64,000 bases of DNA from Paenibacillus sp. NFR01. GTDB lineage: Bacteria > Bacillota > Bacilli > Paenibacillales > Paenibacillaceae. The notes under the pieces are model-generated. The model was not told the origin of the DNA. It did not search any database and saw only the letters and a program-made list of their open reading frames with translations. The translations under genes and the position numbers were made by a program. The DNA is taken from NCBI RefSeq assembly GCF_900111565.1, contig NZ_FOIK01000001.1, forward strand, positions 248,001-312,000. Reading direction: 5' to 3'. Below are positions 30,778 to 41,672 of the stretch, piece by piece. Each line of letters opens with the position of its first letter. The stretch's first letter is position 1.

Positions 30778-31090
30778 ACTTGCAGACAGCGCTGGAAATA
30801 CAGTATCAAGACTATTCGGAACGCGTTTACAGTGTATTATCTTGCGCGGATGTGTATGTTTTATCACAGCTAAGCTACCAACGACCTATAAACGGATGAA
30901 AAATAATAGAAAATGACCATTAATTTCGAGCGTATATTTAATAATTCGAGTCCATTCGACTTTATTCTGCCTGTAAATGTTCTTGAAACAAATATTAATT
31001 TCACACAAATGTCATCCGATATTATAAGTAAGATTCTTCCGTTGACCCGGATGAATAACTTAATTGAATGTTAGGTGGAGGAAGCAAACT
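30778..31090. other. AT-rich intergenic region with a chemotaxis-type promoter
   Basis: No gene is seen. The stretch is much richer in A+T than its surroundings and ends with the sigma-D-like promoter listed separately and a strong ribosome binding site (GGTGGAGG) for the chemoreceptor. Confidence 0.5.
30996..31022 (+). promoter_or_regulatory. Sigma-D (flagellar/chemotaxis) type promoter
   Basis: TAAT (30996-30999), 15-nt spacer, TCCGATAT (31015-31022). The B. subtilis sigma-D consensus is TAAA-N15-GCCGATAT. It lies about 70 bp before the chemoreceptor ATG at 31091, the expected target of this sigma factor. Confidence 0.65.
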
Positions 31091-33118
31091 ATGAAAATAC
31101 GCATGAAGCTTGCGGTAACCATGATTGCCGTTACACTGCTGTCGATCTCTATGATGGCGTTCTTTACGTACAGCAAATCCACCGGTACCATTGAGGAAAT
31201 GACCGACTCCGCGATGAGACAAGTGAACACCGACAAAGCCGAAACGATCAATGCCATGATCGATAAAGAGAAGCGCAGTATTGAGCTGGTTGCCGAGGAT
31301 TCGGAAATCGTCGAACTGCTGCAAAAGCAAGCTAACGGTGAAGACACGCAAGCACTGGTTAGTACATTGAACACGAAACTGCAGGGAATGGTGAAGGACG
31401 CCGGCAATCTTGAGCATATGTTCGTCGCCGATATGCATGGAATCGGGATTGCCGACAGCGACGTGAAGCTGGTCGGTACCGATTTCAGCGAGCGGAATTA
31501 TGCCAAAAATGTATTCAAAACCGGCGAAGCGGTGATCAGTGAAACGCTGAAATCAAAATCGACCGGGGATTATGTGCTGGCCTTTGTGCATCCGGTAAAA
31601 GCCGACGGCAAAATGATCGGATTTGCCGCATCCGCCGTACGGGCGAACAGCATCATCAAATATTTGTCCACGGCCAAAGTGACGAACGCCCCTTCCTCCT
31701 ATGGATATTTGGTGGATGAGACCGGAACGATGCTGTACCATCCGGACCAAAGCAAAATCGGCATTCCCGTGGAGAACGCCCAAATCAATGCTGTAGTCGA
31801 CCGTGTAAAAGCCGGAGAGCAGGTTCCTGACGCCATGGTAGAATACGACTTCAACGGCGCCCACAAAAAAGCCGCATATACCGTTATTCCGGAAACCAAA
31901 TGGACGCTGGTGCTGACCGGCGATTTGAATGAAATTATGCAGCCTGTCCGCAGCATGACGCAATTCATTATTCTGCTTGGGGTCGGCATTCTCGTACTGA
32001 CGCTGATCATCGCCCTCTGGATGGCAAACCGGATTACCAAGCCCATTCATAAGCTGACCGAACTCATTCACCGGACGGCGGCGCTTGACCTGAAATCCGA
32101 TGCCGAATACGAAGCGCTGACCCGCAACAAGGATGAGACGGGAATCAGCTCCCGTGCAATGATCAGTACCCGTGAGGTTCTGCGGGAGACGGCTGGCGGC
32201 CTGATTGCCATTTCGACCAAGGTGCTGGACAACGCGGAAATGCTGGAGCGTTACGCCAATGAGGTGCGGGAGAATGCGCATGACAATTCCGCGACAACGG
32301 AAGAGCTGTCCGCCGGGATGGAAGAGACCGCGGCTTCGACACAGGAAATGACGGCGGCCATTCACGAGATCGAACGCAATGTCCATACGATCGGCGAGCG
32401 GGTCAGCGACGGCGCGACCGTGTCCGAGCAGATCGCCCAGCGGGCGCTGACGCTGCAGCATGATTCCGAGCAGTCGACGGAGAATGCGAGAAGAATATAT
32501 GAATCCGTACGGGAGGACATGGAAAAAGCGATCGAACGCTCGGCTACGATCCATGAAATCAGCGTGCTTGCCGAAACCATCCTGTCCATTACAAGCCAGA
32601 CCAATCTGCTTGCGCTGAACGCGGCCATTGAAGCCGCGCGGGCCGGTGAAGCGGGACGCGGCTTCGCAGTCGTGGCCGGCGAAATCCGCAAGCTGGCGGA
32701 GAAATCGTCCGAAACGGCGTCGGGGATCCAGGATGTCGTTAAGAACGTCTATGCTTCCGTGGAGCAAATGCGCGGGAACTCCGAAGCGATTCTGGCGTTT
32801 ATCGATCAGAACGTGCTGGGGGATTACGAACGCCTGATTGATGTCAGCCGGCAGTACCACGCAGATGCAAGCATGGTCAACGAGCTGATGGAGCATCTCG
32901 AGACATCCGCCCAGCATTTGGGCGAGACGGTGTCGAGCATCGCCATCGCCGTCAACGAAGTGGCAGCCACGGTCAACGAAGGCGCTACGGGCGTGCAGGA
33001 CATTGCCGTCAAGACGGCCGACATCGTGGAGAAAACGTTTAAAGAGGCGGAAATGGCCGTGGAGAACATGGACAGTGCCAAAGAATTGCAGCATCTGGTT
33101 GAAAAATTCAACGTTTAA
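31091..33118 (+). CDS. Methyl-accepting chemotaxis protein with Cache sensor domain
   Basis: 675 residues from the ATG at 31091, after GGTGGAGG. TM1 about 7-27, then a large extracytoplasmic dCache-type domain (about 35-285; [35 protein letters not shown], a typical distal Cache strand-turn). TM2 about 292-315, HAMP about 316-370. The signalling coiled coil has its hairpin tip near 500-540 ([19 protein letters not shown]). Cache receptors usually bind small molecules such as amino or organic acids; the ligand is unknown here. It is preceded by a sigma-D-like promoter. Confidence 0.93.
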
Positions 33119-36691: not shown

Positions 36692-36763
36692 TTTGGTATG
36701 CCGCAGGGAGGTCGAACGCGAAATGCGTTAGCCCTCCCTGAATACATTCAAGGGTGCTAACGC
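36683..36763 (-). promoter_or_regulatory. Mutually exclusive hairpins in the hisS leader
   Basis: Stem A: GCGTTAGC (36756-36763) with GCTAACGC (36725-36732). Stem B reuses the same middle strand: CAGGGAGG (36733-36740) with CCTCCCTG (36704-36711), plus AACGC/GCGTT (36725-36729 and 36715-36719). Stem C: CCTGCG (36702-36707) with CGCAGG (36683-36688), which would break the 5' arm of the terminator. A excludes B, B excludes C, and C excludes the terminator. Confidence 0.6.
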
Positions 36764-36810
36764 TGCTTGTGATGGTAATAAAGATTTTGTATGCTGGTGA
36801 TGCGGATCAT
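36757..36810 (-). CDS. Histidine-containing leader peptide of hisS
   Basis: A 17-codon frame reads MIRITSIQNLYYHHKQR, with adjacent His codons CAT CAC near its end. AAGGG lies 10 nt before the ATG, and the stop codon lies within the first arm of leader stem A. Position between promoter and attenuator, the ribosome binding site and the His-His pair just before the hairpins all fit a leader peptide that senses charged tRNA-His, as in the enteric his operon. Adjacent His codons by chance in so short a frame are unlikely but possible. Confidence 0.55.
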   Translation of the reverse strand: MIRITSIQNLYYHHKQR

Positions 36811-36843
36811 AGGGTCCATTCCCTTCGGACTTGATTAAGGGTC

Positions 36844-36872
36844 ATTATAGCGGAATCGGATCAAGACCGCAA
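36844..36872 (-). promoter_or_regulatory. Promoter for the hisS leader transcript
   Basis: On the minus strand: -10 TATAAT (36844-36849), 17-nt spacer, -35 TTGCGG (36867-36872). The predicted leader is about 225 nt. The -35 box overlaps the upstream region of the divergent HD-domain gene. Confidence 0.65.
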
Positions 36873-36909
36873 GCGGAATTCCGATACATAAGGCAGGGAG
36901 GCCAATATA

Positions 36910-37578
36910 TTGAGTAATGCAGAGATGATTGCCGCAGCGGAGAGCTTTGCCAGACGGGAGCTGGAACAGGATTCAACGGGCCATGACTGGTGGCACACGG
37001 ACCGGGTGCGCCGGATGGCGGCGCGGATCGCGGAAGAAGAACAAGGGGACGTGCTGATCTGCACGATTGCCGCGCTGCTTCACGATGTAGCGGACGAGAA
37101 ACTGAATCCGTCCAAGGAAGCGGGATTGCATAAAGTGGAAACCTGGCTGAAAGAACATCTGGAGGACCGGGATGTCATTTCGCATATTATGCAAATCATC
37201 GCGACAATGTCTTTTGCCGGAGGAGGGGGTGCGCCGATGGCGACGCTGGAAGGACGGATCGTGCAGGATGCCGACCGGCTGGATGCGCTGGGCGCGATCG
37301 GCATTGCCCGGACGATGGTATTCTCGGGCGCGAAGGGCCGTCCGGTTCACGATCCGGCAATTTCCCCCCGGGACGAGACGCTTCAGAAAGAATACCGCGA
37401 TTATTCCAAAGGGACGGCGGTCAATCATTTTTATGAAAAATTGCTGAAGCTCAAGGACCTGATGAATACGCCGTATGCCCGGAAGCTGGCGGAGGAGCGG
37501 CACCGCTTTATGGAGCTGTACCTGGAGCAGTTCCTGAAGGAATGGAGCGAAGGCTCAAACCCCGAACGCGCCGAGTAA
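36910..37578 (+). CDS. HD domain-containing phosphohydrolase
   Basis: 222 residues, TTG start at 36910 with CAGGGAGG upstream. HD fold metal ligands: HDWWHTDRVRRMA (His), ALLHDVADEK (His-Asp), IVQDADRLDALGAIG (Asp). This subfamily (YedJ/YpgQ-like) hydrolyses nucleotides or related phosphates. Divergent from hisS, with little more than 35 bp between gene start and the hisS -35 box. Confidence 0.9.
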   Translation: MSNAEMIAAAESFARRELEQDSTGHDWWHTDRVRRMAARIAEEEQGDVLICTIAALLHDVADEKLNPSKEAGLHKVETWLKEHLEDRDVISHIMQIIATMSFAGGGGAPMATLEGRIVQDADRLDALGAIGIARTMVFSGAKGRPVHDPAISPRDETLQKEYRDYSKGTAVNHFYEKLLKLKDLMNTPYARKLAEERHRFMELYLEQFLKEWSEGSNPERAE

Positions 37579-37586
37579 ACCAAATA

Positions 37587-37678
37587 CCGGAGCGCGCCCG
37601 GCGATCGGTGAATTTTTCTGGAGGAGCACTACGGTGTCTCCATAAATTCAGCGTTTCTCCGGCGCACCCCGGTTTTTT
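37587..37678. terminator. Probable terminator between the HD-domain and KAS III genes
   Basis: ACCGGAGCGCGCC near 37587 can pair, with two mismatches, with GGCGCACCCCGGT just before a run of seven T at about 37672-37678. The loop is long and holds a smaller hairpin. Confidence 0.5.
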
Positions 37679-37686
37679 TGCGGCAA

Positions 37687-38688
37687 TCAATAACGGAACA
37701 GAATATTGCAGGATGTAATGCCTGCGCCGACCGACCAGAACACGATATGATCGCCGCGCTCGATTTCGCCTTCTTCAATGGATTTCGACAGCGCGATGAA
37801 CGGGCTGCTGGTACCGGTATAGCCGAATTCGTCCCCGACATATTTAAACTTGTCCAAATCTTCGCCGAGCTGTTCGCAGATTCCGTCGATATTTTTCTTG
37901 GCGAATTGGGAGAGGAAATATTTTTTGACATTGGCTTTGGTTAAACCGTTGTCTGCCAGCGAACGCTCAATGGCATTTCGGGCGCTGATGAACGCCTCGT
38001 CGGTGTCGAAAGGCAGCCATTCGATCCGCTTGTCGTATTCGCTGAGGTCTTGGCGGTAAATATTCGAGAAGCCCGTTGCCGGCAGCACGATCGTATCATG
38101 CATCGAAGAATCGGTGTAATACGAGGAATCCAGGATACCGCAATCTTCGTCCTCCACCCGTTCCAGAATCAGTGCGGCTGCGGCATCGCCGAAATTGGCA
38201 TAGGGAACCTCTTCGTCGGTGCGCGAGTATTTGTTCATTTGCTCCGCACCGACGATCATCGCGTATTTGATCCGCGGATTGGCGATGATGTGGCGGCTGG
38301 CCTGCTCCAGGGCAATGACCATGCCGACGCAGTTGGCGTTCATGTCGAACACCCGGGCCGAGCTTTTACCGCCCAGTGCGTGATGGACCTTCAAGGCATT
38401 GGTGGGCTGTACATATTCGGGAGTGCCGGAAGAAAATACGATCATATCCAAATCCTCTGCCGCAAGGCCGGATTCGGCCAGTGCGCGCCGTGCGGCTTCG
38501 ATGCCCATCGTAAGCGGCGTTTCGTTCGGATCGGTCGACAGATAACGTTTGTTGCGGCCGGTCACCGCGAGCAAACCGCGAATGTCTTTGCCCTGACTGT
38601 CAAAATGGCTAAAATAGTAATCATTATCTACAATGTGGTCAGGATGGTAAACAGATACTTTTTTAATTTTAACATTCGCATTTGTCAT
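37687..38688 (-). CDS. Ketoacyl-ACP synthase III-like protein lacking the catalytic His and Asn
   Basis: 333 residues, FabH length. Thiolase fold with the nucleophile Cys in DMNANCVGMVIALEQA and the C-terminal WSVGAGITSCNILFRY. Where FabH has the active-site His (PHQAN) this protein reads LSQFAKKN, and where FabH has the Asn (HGNTSAAS) it reads FGYTGTSSPF. Cys is therefore kept, His and Asn are not. Such KAS III relatives often do acyl transfer or ester formation instead of decarboxylative condensation. It may also be regulatory. A small STAS-like protein is encoded just upstream on the same strand. Confidence 0.85.
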   Translation of the reverse strand: MTNANVKIKKVSVYHPDHIVDNDYYFSHFDSQGKDIRGLLAVTGRNKRYLSTDPNETPLTMGIEAARRALAESGLAAEDLDMIVFSSGTPEYVQPTNALKVHHALGGKSSARVFDMNANCVGMVIALEQASRHIIANPRIKYAMIVGAEQMNKYSRTDEEVPYANFGDAAAALILERVEDEDCGILDSSYYTDSSMHDTIVLPATGFSNIYRQDLSEYDKRIEWLPFDTDEAFISARNAIERSLADNGLTKANVKKYFLSQFAKKNIDGICEQLGEDLDKFKYVGDEFGYTGTSSPFIALSKSIEEGEIERGDHIVFWSVGAGITSCNILFRY

Positions 38689-38727
38689 ATTATTCTTCCC
38701 CTCTCAAATATTAGCATCACATGCTTG

Positions 38728-38757
38728 CAAAAAAAGCCAACGCAAAGGCTGGCTTTT
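38728..38757 (-). terminator. Terminator/attenuator between the small protein gene and the KAS III-like gene
   Basis: On the minus strand AAAAGCCA...TGGCTTTT forms a stem followed by seven T. It lies 40 bp before the KAS III start, so it ends most transcripts of the upstream gene or sets the ratio of the two. Confidence 0.7.
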
Positions 38758-38770
38758 GGTTGATCCGCAG

Positions 38771-39181
38771 TTACTTCAGGGCCAATTCCGATTCAGCGTT
38801 GACAAACTGGAATTGTTCGAGCAGATTGACTTCCCGGGCGATCCGCTTCAGCTGCATCTGTCCTATGGAGTTGGTCGGATTGATGAAGTGCACGGATTTG
38901 AACTCGGCGTAAGCCTTGTAGGCTTCTTTCAGGTAAGGAAGAATATCGGTTTTGAACGTAGACAGATTAATGCAATTGATCACGATGTTGTAATCCTTTT
39001 GGTTCAGCGGAGTGGTGTATTTCTCGTAATCTACGAAAAATTGTTCAGCGTCGTCGACACCATAAAAGCCGTACAGGTCAATGTGGAACACTTTATTCTC
39101 GTTGTCGAGCCACATCTCGTGTCTTCCGCCTTCGTTATTCGGATTGCTGGGATTCGTTGCTTCTACCATTTCCGGGTTCAT
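38771..39181 (-). CDS. Hypothetical small protein, STAS/SpoIIAA-like
   Basis: 136 residues. After a short polar N-terminus (about 1-20), the segments HEMWLDNENKVFHIDLYG, YNIVINCINLSTFKTDILP and FKSVHFINPTNSIGQMQLKR suggest the alternating beta-alpha order of a STAS-like fold. A match would be needed to confirm it. No signal peptide or TM helix. The start is uncertain: AAAGG lies 1-2 nt before the first ATG and 12 nt before the ATG at 39169. It is the immediate upstream neighbour of the KAS III-like gene and probably acts with it. Confidence 0.7.
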   Translation of the reverse strand: MNPEMVEATNPSNPNNEGGRHEMWLDNENKVFHIDLYGFYGVDDAEQFFVDYEKYTTPLNQKDYNIVINCINLSTFKTDILPYLKEAYKAYAEFKSVHFINPTNSIGQMQLKRIAREVNLLEQFQFVNAESELALK

Positions 39182-39394
39182 CCTTTCAAAAGATTGGTAT
39201 TGTTCAATTATATTTACATTCTTATTTAACAGTCAATTCTTTCCAAGGGTATTTTTACCTATAAATCTGGAATAGTTTATGAAAATTAGTGATTTATCTC
39301 GTTGAAAAGCTGTTAAATCCGGTGTAAATTCCTATGAAATGACATTTATACGAAAATATTATAGGTCTCTGTACGTGAGAGGAGCGGCGCCAAT

Positions 39395-40555
39395 ATGAAT
39401 AATGATGTAACCTCCGGGGAGTTTGCGATCCCTTTTTTACAGCGCCTGATTCAGACGGATACCTGCAATCCGCCGGGCAACGAAATGAAACTTGCTGCGG
39501 AGCTGCAGGCTTTCTTGCAGGAACATGGAATCGCCGGCGAACTCCTCGAGGCTGGGGAAGGGCGCGGCAATCTGGAAGCGGTGTTTCCGGGGAGCGGAAC
39601 GCGAACGCTGATGTTCTGCGGCCATCTGGATACGGTGGGCGCCTGGGCGCCGGGAGCGGGCGTCTATCCGCCGAATGGCGCGGTCCTCGCAGACGGACGG
39701 ATGTACGGGCGGGGCACGTCCGATATGAAAAGCGGGCTGGCCGCCATGCTGTTGGCCGCCGTCTCGCTGCATCTGGAAGGCATCAAGCTCGGCGGCGATT
39801 TGCTCTTTCTGGCGACCGCCGGGGAAGAGGTGGATAGCTGCGGCGCCCGCCTGTACGCCGCCCGGCCGGACCGCCGGAAGCCGGACGGCCTGGTGATCGC
39901 CGAGCCGACCGGCAGCCGGGTGGCGGTCGGCCATAAAGGCGCGCTGTGGCTGCGCATCACGCTGCACGGGCGCAGCGCCCACGGCTCGATGCCGCAGCTT
40001 GGGCTCAACGCCGTGGAAGGCATGATGGAGATCATCGCCTTCCTGCGCCGTCATTCGTTGCAGTGGCAGGGAGCGGACCCGGTGCTTGGGTCCGGCAGCC
40101 TGTCGGTCAACCGCATCGCCGGCGGCATCCAGACGAACGTCGTTCCCGACCGCTGCGAGATCGACGTCGACATCCGCACGGTCCCGCCGCAGAGTCACGC
40201 GGCGCTGTTCGCGGAGCTTGAAGCCGAGCTGGCGAAGCTCAGCGGGCGGGCTCCCGGCTACCGCTGCGAGGTGCGGCAGCTCCTGGACCGGAGCGTGGTG
40301 TACACCGATCCAGGGGAGGCGCTGATCCGCACGGCGCTGGATATCGCCGGGACGGAGGAGGTTTGCGGCGTGCCGTATTATACGGACGGCTCGGTGCTGC
40401 ATGAGGACGGCACCATCCCCGTCCTCATTTACGGTCCCGGCGAGCCGTCCATGGCGCATCAGCCGGACGAATGGGTCGATCTCGAAGCGTACCTCGCTTC
40501 GATCCGGTTCTACCGCGAGCTGGCGCTGTGGTTTCTGGGCAGGGCGGCGGAGTGA
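39395..40555 (+). CDS. M20 family metallopeptidase (ArgE/DapE-like)
   Basis: 386 residues with GAGAGGAGCGG upstream. Di-zinc site residues are visible: His-Asp in FCGHLDTVGAW, bridging Asp in GRGTSDMKSGLAAML, the catalytic Glu-Glu in ATAGEEVDSCGAR, and a C-terminal His in MAHQPDEWV. The dimerisation (lid) domain is at about 180-290. The family contains acetylornithine deacetylase, succinyl-diaminopimelate desuccinylase and carboxypeptidases. No biosynthetic neighbours are present, so the substrate is open. Confidence 0.9.
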   Translation: MNNDVTSGEFAIPFLQRLIQTDTCNPPGNEMKLAAELQAFLQEHGIAGELLEAGEGRGNLEAVFPGSGTRTLMFCGHLDTVGAWAPGAGVYPPNGAVLADGRMYGRGTSDMKSGLAAMLLAAVSLHLEGIKLGGDLLFLATAGEEVDSCGARLYAARPDRRKPDGLVIAEPTGSRVAVGHKGALWLRITLHGRSAHGSMPQLGLNAVEGMMEIIAFLRRHSLQWQGADPVLGSGSLSVNRIAGGIQTNVVPDRCEIDVDIRTVPPQSHAALFAELEAELAKLSGRAPGYRCEVRQLLDRSVVYTDPGEALIRTALDIAGTEEVCGVPYYTDGSVLHEDGTIPVLIYGPGEPSMAHQPDEWVDLEAYLASIRFYRELALWFLGRAAE

Positions 40556-41083: not shown

Positions 41084-41150
41084 GCCAGGAATCTCTGTAT
41101 ACCAGGGCATCAGGCGGCAATAAGGCGGTGACTGCAGAGTCTAATATGAG

Positions 41151-41195
41151 CACAAAAAAGTGCCGGAGCGATTATTCGCTTCGGCACTTTTTGTG
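41151..41195. terminator. Long hairpin bordering the minisatellite
   Basis: Arms of about 19 bp (41151-41170 and 41177-41195), CACAAAAA-GTGCCG-AGCG against CGCT-CGGCAC-TTTTTGTG with single-base interruptions, 6-nt loop. It has terminator character on either strand but is not obviously linked to a gene. Confidence 0.55.
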
Positions 41196-41198
41196 ATA

Positions 41199-41461
41199 GA
41201 CGCACCAAGCCACAAAGACGCACCAAGCCACAAAGACGCACCAAGCCACAAAGACGCACCAAGCTACAAAGACGCACCAAGCCACAAAGACGCACCAAGC
41301 CACAAAGACGCACCAAGCCACAAAGACGCACCAAGCCACAAAGACGCACCAAGCTACAAAGACGCACCAAGCCACAAAGACGCACCAAGCTACAAAGACG
41401 CACCAAGCCACAAAGACGCACCAAGCCACAAAGACGCACCAAGCCACAAAGACGCACCAAA
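41199..41461. repeat. Tandem 18-bp minisatellite, 14 full copies plus a partial copy
   Basis: Unit GACGCACCAAGCCACAAA repeated head to tail from 41199 to 41450, then a truncated copy. Units 4, 9 and 11 carry the same C-to-T change (AGCTAC). There are no spacers, so it is not a CRISPR. Copies are nearly identical, which suggests recent expansion. Confidence 0.95.
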
Positions 41462-41672
41462 TCCCTAGTCCACCCGTAAAGTTGTTCCATACTCCGATCG
41501 GTCGTGCTTTCTAACACGTCACTAATTTAGTCTGTACAAGTCTCTTGCTATGTGTAGCTTGCCGTGCGACTCCCTTATCGAAGGGCCAGGCTCTCCGATG
41601 ACGATGATCCGGTCAGTGCCTCAGACAGCGGCTGGTTTGAGGTGGGGATCCGCCCAATTTTCCCGGAACCCA

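Follow-up and report, generated by a model that had tools for sequence, protein, structure and literature searches.

A KAS III-like protein with Ser and Tyr at the FabH His and Asn positions, its STAS-like partner, and a possible acyl-thioester input to chemotaxis in Bacillota

PqsD and other enzymes of the ketoacyl-ACP synthase III (KAS III) type are reportedly linked to signalling, a link to which the titles of PDB entries also point. The STAS domain of Escherichia coli YchM is a transporter domain. In the KAS III reaction, according to PMC5724707, the cysteine transacylates, and the histidine and asparagine are needed for the Claisen condensation. A STAS-only protein of the alpha-proteobacteria, CheS, binds CheA and acts on it, as described in PMC12654446. 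Here we consider a pair of adjacent genes that brings together a KAS III-like protein and a small protein with a predicted STAS-like fold, and whose relatives are in many cases found beside a chemoreceptor (MCP) gene. In the open PMC literature, to which the search was confined (subscription papers were outside its scope), no paper describing the pair or its MCP link was found among the matches listed.

The pair lies in a 64,000-nucleotide stretch of the genome of Paenibacillus sp. NFR01, referred to as the window. Its features are as follows.

37687..38688, minus strand: KAS III-like gene, an ORF of 333 aa with an ATG start
38771..39181, minus strand: partner gene, an ORF of 136 aa with an ATG start
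38329..38331, minus strand: codon of Cys120, the nucleophile position, computed from the ORF start
37909..37911, minus strand: codon of Ser260, the counterpart of the FabH His, located by counting from the ORF start
37819..37821, minus strand: codon of Tyr290, the counterpart of the FabH Asn, located by counting from the ORF start
38732..38757, minus strand: intergenic hairpin with a T run behind it, resembling a terminator on inspection; relatives do not share it
39207..39236, minus strand: sigma-70-type promoter-like site TTGACT-18-TATAAT, a consensus match only (11/12)

Both ORFs are found on the minus strand at the positions given for them in the original prediction, with the partner gene first and the KAS III-like gene behind it, and the promoter-like site lies about 25 nt ahead of the partner ATG. 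The hairpin between the genes does exist, but the idea that it is a terminator setting the ratio of the two proteins finds no support outside the window's own sequence. The intergenic segment is unremarkable in folding energy (z -0.33, with 77 of 200 shuffles folding equally well), the hairpin is absent from the list returned by a terminator scan, its sequence is not conserved in the four nearest relatives, and 32 of the 98 loci with an upstream partner have no more than 3-24 nt between the genes. A terminator or attenuator as a family trait was rejected because of the ordinary folding energy, the unconserved sequence and the short gaps in relatives. An Rfam scan of 36700-39600 gave no element at the gathering score. 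Elsewhere in the window, at 41110-41517, there are repetitive ORFs, with GLVRLC repeats on one strand and DAPSHK on the other, which are probably a minisatellite.

Membership of an anti-phage or phage family was also considered, and is weakened by PADLOC and PHROG searches that gave zero matches at E up to 0.01 and by the matches in a phage collection, which comprise 20 records at only 22-32% identity. The pair is present on one IMG/VR contig, a putatively viral sequence of 140 kb (L137).

The 333-residue protein matches both Pfam ACP_syn_III and ACP_syn_III_C above cut-off, and falls under every NCBIfam cut-off among the matches listed (23 families at E up to 1), scoring 147 of the 249 bits required for PRK09352 and 133.1 of 292.1 for fabH. 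Its model (pLDDT 95.6) has a predicted FabH fold, and comparison with E. coli FabH (6x7r) gives Foldseek TM-scores of 0.87/0.91 and a Z-score of 43.2, with an rmsd of 1.9 over 317 residues. A separate FabH, 29% identical to the 333-residue protein, is encoded elsewhere in the same genome (L002), where the surrounding genes read as plsX-fabD-fabG. Alignment of the two places Cys120 at the position of Cys116 of this FabH, Ser260 at that of His256 and Tyr290 at that of Asn286.

Relatives were drawn from 100 genomes of the genus, plasmid records, viral contigs and GTDB contigs (the best 80 of a longer list), and alignment rows were filtered at 88% identity. Among 118 distinct family members, the window's included, Cys120 and Gln261 are found in all 118, Ser260 in 117 (the lone exception being Thr in L122) and Tyr290 in 116. 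The two members without Tyr290 are L073, a fragment with a gap at this column, and L056, which has Asn there and matches the query only as far as residue 295. The Cys, Ser, Gln, Tyr and Thr columns are near-invariant across the set, and four further clostridial loci, at 32-39% identity to a clostridial query, keep Cys, Ser/Thr and Tyr. The prediction that the nucleophilic Cys is retained and that the FabH His and Asn positions are altered thus applies to the family as a whole. Nor have these residues been displaced within the family, since no shifted His or Asn is conserved near the catalytic sites and the only columns with His in at least 93% of members are H15 and H102. The Cys-His-Asn triad of condensing KAS III enzymes is therefore absent from the 118 proteins.

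Because the 118 members share this signature almost without exception, the changes at the His and Asn columns are not local decay; judged from the alignment, C-S-Y is a fixed family signature, an active site that has been remade rather than one that has decayed. With His and Asn replaced and Cys kept, loss of condensation with possible acyl binding would be expected, and the KAS III-like protein most likely can no longer condense while keeping an acyl-accepting Cys. The loss of two catalytic residues relative to FabH could also be taken as the mark of a decayed, functionless FabH copy. This can be given almost no credence, as it is already contradicted by the conservation of near-invariant columns in 118 proteins despite identities to the window protein of only 38-76% in the members covered by two of the alignments. 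Another way of reading the same alignment is that the protein is a condensing enzyme that uses other residues, for example H15, H102, N117 or N119, all of which are near-invariant among the members and are other residues in the FabH encoded by the same genome. Since these columns coincide with neither the His nor the Asn column of FabH, we consider condensation by such residues to be very unlikely.

The KAS III-like gene and the partner gene are linked. In a survey of 296 genomes of the order, both genes were present in 112, KAS alone in 3 and the partner alone in 6, that is, KAS in 115 (one of them a fragment) and the partner in 118, giving a Fisher p of 8e-70 for co-occurrence if kinship is ignored. 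Relatedness among the genomes raises all of the counts given here. The 100 genomes of the genus contained KAS in 70 and the partner in 71, the difference being a single genome (G061). Of 127 distinct KAS loci, a set that excludes KAS sequences shorter than 300 aa or with a stop (e.g. L073), 104 have the two genes side by side: the partner is upstream on the same strand in 98, convergent in 4 and downstream on the same strand in 2, and 23 have none. Of the 55 loci collected at an earlier stage, 51 gave a partner match with an iterated profile seeded solely by the window protein. In the plasmid collection, all four records with a partner match also carry a KAS of the family; on a Jeotgalibacillus plasmid the partner match is far from the KAS gene, and two P. 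polymyxa plasmid records have the KAS without a partner match. The linkage is retained across Bacilli and Clostridia, which also speaks against a decayed FabH. With the two genes conserved as neighbours and no His or Asn preserved at a shifted position, the original prediction holds at the two points where it was most exposed.

Some variations on this arrangement were seen. One locus (L153:4299-6360) has a single KAS flanked by two different partner copies, in the order partner-KAS-partner. Family KAS genes occur on large plasmids of Brevibacillus, Paenibacillus, Jeotgalibacillus and Alkaliphilus (L003-L007), two of the plasmid KAS genes lying beside genes for nicotinate phosphoribosyltransferase and ribose-phosphate pyrophosphokinase. 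On contig C14 of the window's own genome (L166:4686-4877) there is a short partner relic, with a profile E of 1.8e-9 and no KAS. The relic adjoins a deoC-looking gene, of a kind that in several relatives lies about 1.4 kb from the pair; as the relic shares this neighbour with the pairs of relatives, an older pair may have been lost here from the window's genome.

The 136-residue partner has no significant match in Pfam or NCBIfam, in agreement with its earlier description as a protein without known function. Its model (pLDDT 89.4) has a predicted SpoIIAA/STAS fold, with a Foldseek E of 2.6e-4 to SpoIIAA chain 1til_B and a Z-score of 13.4 against 1tid_B (rmsd 2.2 over 107 residues), so that the label STAS-like is upheld by the predicted structure. 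Profile comparisons are less telling. None of 55 partner members reaches the curated score of Pfam STAS (best E 0.049, with 4 of the 55 at E up to 1) or of Pfam SpoIIAA-like (best E 0.04, 3 of the 55), unrelated Pfam families score lower E-values in single members (Redoxin, for example, at 0.0029), and hhalign of the partner family against STAS gives a probability of 6.2. Sequence profiles alone thus fall short of proof of STAS homology, and the fold is a prediction from the modelled structure.

In the partner alignment (A3), which omits L107, L044 and L134 from 62 listed rows, Gln110 is invariant in 55 aligned members and lies inside an MQLxR motif, whilst Asp69 (Asn in the window copy), Leu111 and Arg113 are near-invariant. 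The column corresponding to the phospho-Ser of same-genome STAS proteins, as placed by a low-confidence alignment, contains Ser or Thr in 5 of the 55 members, Pro in 30 and Gln in 14; the window's Thr78, at the DSxG-position column, is among the five. With so few Ser/Thr at this column, the alignment suggests that the partner is probably not a classical phospho-switched antagonist. An apparent fusion of the partner to a 750-aa frame (G287) was rejected in favour of a long open frame that precedes the small gene. In three loci without the partner (L087, L089 and L170), another protein of 134 aa is encoded downstream of KAS; by hhalign against the partner family (probability 60, E 8.5e-5) it may be STAS-like.

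In the clostridial loci that lack the partner, the neighbour of KAS is an MCP gene, confirmed by Pfam in six cases, and these six proteins were used to build an MCP profile. With this profile, an MCP is found within 500 bp of KAS in 15 of the 23 partner-less loci and in one locus where the partner is present (L074), making 16. A second arrangement, seen in 20 loci, comprises MCP, TPP-enzyme, partner and KAS genes, with the MCP gene on the same strand no more than 4 kb upstream; in L079, for one, the genes run MCP-GAF-TPP enzyme-partner-KAS and are spaced 6 to 40 nt apart. An MCP counted as linked at up to 500 bp, or at up to 4 kb if a TPP gene lay no more than 2 kb away, intervening opposite-strand genes being allowed. 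On these limits, 36 of 109 long-flank loci are MCP-linked and 73 have no linked MCP, 18 short-flank loci having been omitted. Genes at the loci were called by a longest-ORF script, which can favour antisense ORFs (as seen in L151 and L162).

The association is not confined to KAS. Among 11 loci that have the partner and no recognised KAS neighbour (a subset of such loci, the partner being broken in L147), there are 8 in which an MCP gene adjoins the partner or precedes it in a row of genes on one strand. Thus, both sets of loci show MCP neighbours: KAS keeps an MCP without the partner, and the partner keeps an MCP without KAS. On a quick tree with long branches, parsimony requires 9 changes of MCP state. 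The four-member clade of the window falls together with 13 rows that have an adjacent MCP (support 99), most of them titled Lachnospiraceae or Clostridium.

The window pair itself has no linked MCP by these limits. The nearest (31064-33118) is 4.6 kb off, on the opposite strand and with genes between, and is an ordinary MCP; as the genome has 27 MCP hits, one can be so placed by chance, and it was rejected as a linked receptor. Two other places in this genome are of note with regard to chemotaxis genes. Contig C4 (L165:4309-5559) has a short MCP of the Paenibacillus operon in similar gene surroundings, with neither partner nor KAS found near it. On contig C8 (L187:1477-2243), a STAS gene followed by a 139-aa RsbW-looking ORF lies close behind CheA and MCP hits, and is another STAS-chemotaxis association in the window's genome.

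The association with MCP genes was seen before a forward test was run on 250 genomes of one clostridial family. CheA was present in 128 of these genomes and KAS in 7, all 7 being CheA-positive; two of the seven (G351 and G359) had been met earlier. If the genome at the centre of the sample is left out, 6 of 6 KAS genomes are CheA-positive (p 0.017, kinship ignored). Of the 128 CheA-positive genomes, 121 are without KAS. In all four newly met loci an MCP gene is directly beside KAS, for which the chance is about 1e-8, assuming one gene per kb, taking an MCP density of 11 to 23 in 2.2 to 4.6 Mb and ignoring kinship. All 30 KAS-bearing genomes checked by locus also carry CheA, three of them shared with the seven. 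In the window's order CheA is near-universal (294 of 296 genomes), and the CheA test is therefore uninformative there.

Our preferred reading, to which we give a probability of roughly 0.45, is that the KAS III-like protein and its partner provide an acyl-thioester-dependent cytosolic input to chemotaxis. The two proteins would form a conserved cytosolic module of Bacillota equipped with chemotaxis genes, serving chemoreceptor signalling. The thiolase-fold protein, descended from KAS III, would bind acyl-CoA or acyl-ACP, or be acylated by it, at the Cys120 pocket, and would most likely serve as a gauge of the cell's acyl-thioester status (lipid or carbon). Its STAS-fold partner would then most likely dock on it and pass this status on, either to the receptor or to the kinase of the chemotaxis system. 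Where clostridial relatives have no partner, the KAS-like protein would probably act on the MCP directly. Acylation of Cys120, binding between the two proteins and the direction of signalling are what we infer, as is the same role for the window pair. Weighing against this reading are the 73 of 109 long-flank loci with no linked MCP, the lack of one at the window pair, and the 121 CheA-positive clostridial genomes that lack KAS. A more specific version, in which a chemotaxis sensor derived from KAS III becomes acylated at the cysteine, is read by a STAS adaptor and steers the cell by its lipid or acyl-CoA state or by an operon-made acyl signal, may be correct but is more doubtful. The original prediction had offered a non-condensing acyltransferase or an acyl-sensing signalling pair: the replaced His and Asn, the predicted STAS fold and the MCP linkage of relatives fit it, and acyl transfer or sensing is what they would suggest.

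The kind of receptor found at these loci is also of interest. By hydropathy scan, the clostridial receptors adjoining KAS have several TM segments and loops of at most 79 residues. The Paenibacillus operon receptors that were scanned, 17 of the 20 (L150, L154 and L162 being skipped), have one or two TM segments, their loops staying within the same limit where there is more than one, and those of L083 and L125, in the same gene position, have zero predicted. The lack of large external loops implies a receptor input that is membrane-borne or cytosolic. Larger loops were seen in the receptors of L129, L132 and L135 (161 residues), which are more than 4 kb away and not counted as linked, and at L066, where besides the short-loop receptor a divergent MCP 455 bp off on the other side has a 256-residue loop.

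The other neighbouring genes (TPP, CMD, GAF and hydrolase are names from Pfam) raise the main rival to an acyl-thioester input. A TPP-enzyme gene lies upstream in 32 of the 127 loci, 20 with an MCP and 12 without one in the limits used; in one type of Paenibacillus operon, the TPP enzyme and a CMD-family protein are encoded between the MCP and the partner. An alpha/beta-hydrolase gene is found within 400 bp upstream of KAS in nine clostridial loci, in the order hydrolase-KAS-MCP (L058-L063, L065, L068 and L076; named by Pfam for one and by similarity for the rest). A row that includes TPP-enzyme and CMD-family genes is as compatible with biosynthesis as with sensing. On this view, the KAS III-like protein could transfer acyl groups without condensing them and, in concert with the TPP enzyme, the CMD protein or the hydrolase, make a small acyl-derived molecule sensed by the adjacent MCP, whose multi-TM domain without a large external part would suit such a signal. 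However, 47 of the 109 long-flank loci hold the pair with neither an MCP nor a TPP gene in the limits used, the receptors of L083 and L125 take the same place without any predicted TM segment, and a STAS partner would be unexpected for a biosynthetic step. For these reasons we think that synthesis of a signal is unlikely.

A simpler possibility is that the protein is a plain metabolic enzyme, a non-condensing acyltransferase or thioesterase-like enzyme acting through Cys120, and that the neighbouring MCP is merely co-regulated. The conserved Cys120 and fold would be accounted for, and KAS III-like acyltransferases do exist in ChlB3 and CerJ, as PMC9573744 describes. However, by the same account these enzymes need an active-site His, and none is found here at the FabH His and Asn columns. 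Co-regulation also sits poorly with MCP linkage that recurs in different gene orders, and a purely metabolic role is decidedly improbable.

An input to chemotaxis through acyl-thioesters would have several implications. Members of the family on plasmids are annotated as ketoacyl-ACP synthase III or similar, and under the current annotation the family would be modelled as fatty-acid enzymes. If the preferred reading is true, a chemosensory module is present in 115 of the 296 sampled genomes of the order as well as in Lachnospiraceae and Clostridium, and both the coupling of metabolism to chemotaxis in Gram-positives and the input of receptors without a large external domain become testable. The KAS III-like protein is also a natural case for asking what the KAS III fold does without His and Asn.

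Set against known KAS III proteins, the family shares with FabH the predicted fold and the position of the nucleophilic Cys, and differs in having Ser and Tyr at the His and Asn columns. ChlB3 and CerJ have in common with it the KAS III fold and a Cys nucleophile for acyl transfer; as described in PMC9573744, they use Cys-His-Asp, whereas the window family is without His at the FabH catalytic columns, a comparison made by description only. PqsD (3h76) also has the KAS III fold (Z 41.2), but the MCP and STAS gene context belongs to the window family and not to PqsD.

The partner, for its part, shares its predicted fold with SpoIIAA, RsbV and RsbS, and differs from them in having no significant Pfam STAS match or conserved phospho-Ser. 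CheS (PMC12654446) resembles the partner in being a small STAS-only protein in a chemosensory setting; CheS sits in a che cluster, whereas the partner gene lies beside a KAS-like gene and, in some relatives, behind an MCP gene. The STAS domain of E. coli YchM, bound to ACP in PDB 3ny7 according to the entry's title, is a case of a STAS fold touching the fatty-acid machinery, and the partner model compares with it at a Z-score of 9.5 (rmsd 3.6 over 114). CheS and the ACP-bound STAS domain help the proposed mechanism, because they are precedents for contact of a STAS protein with CheA on the one hand and with ACP on the other.
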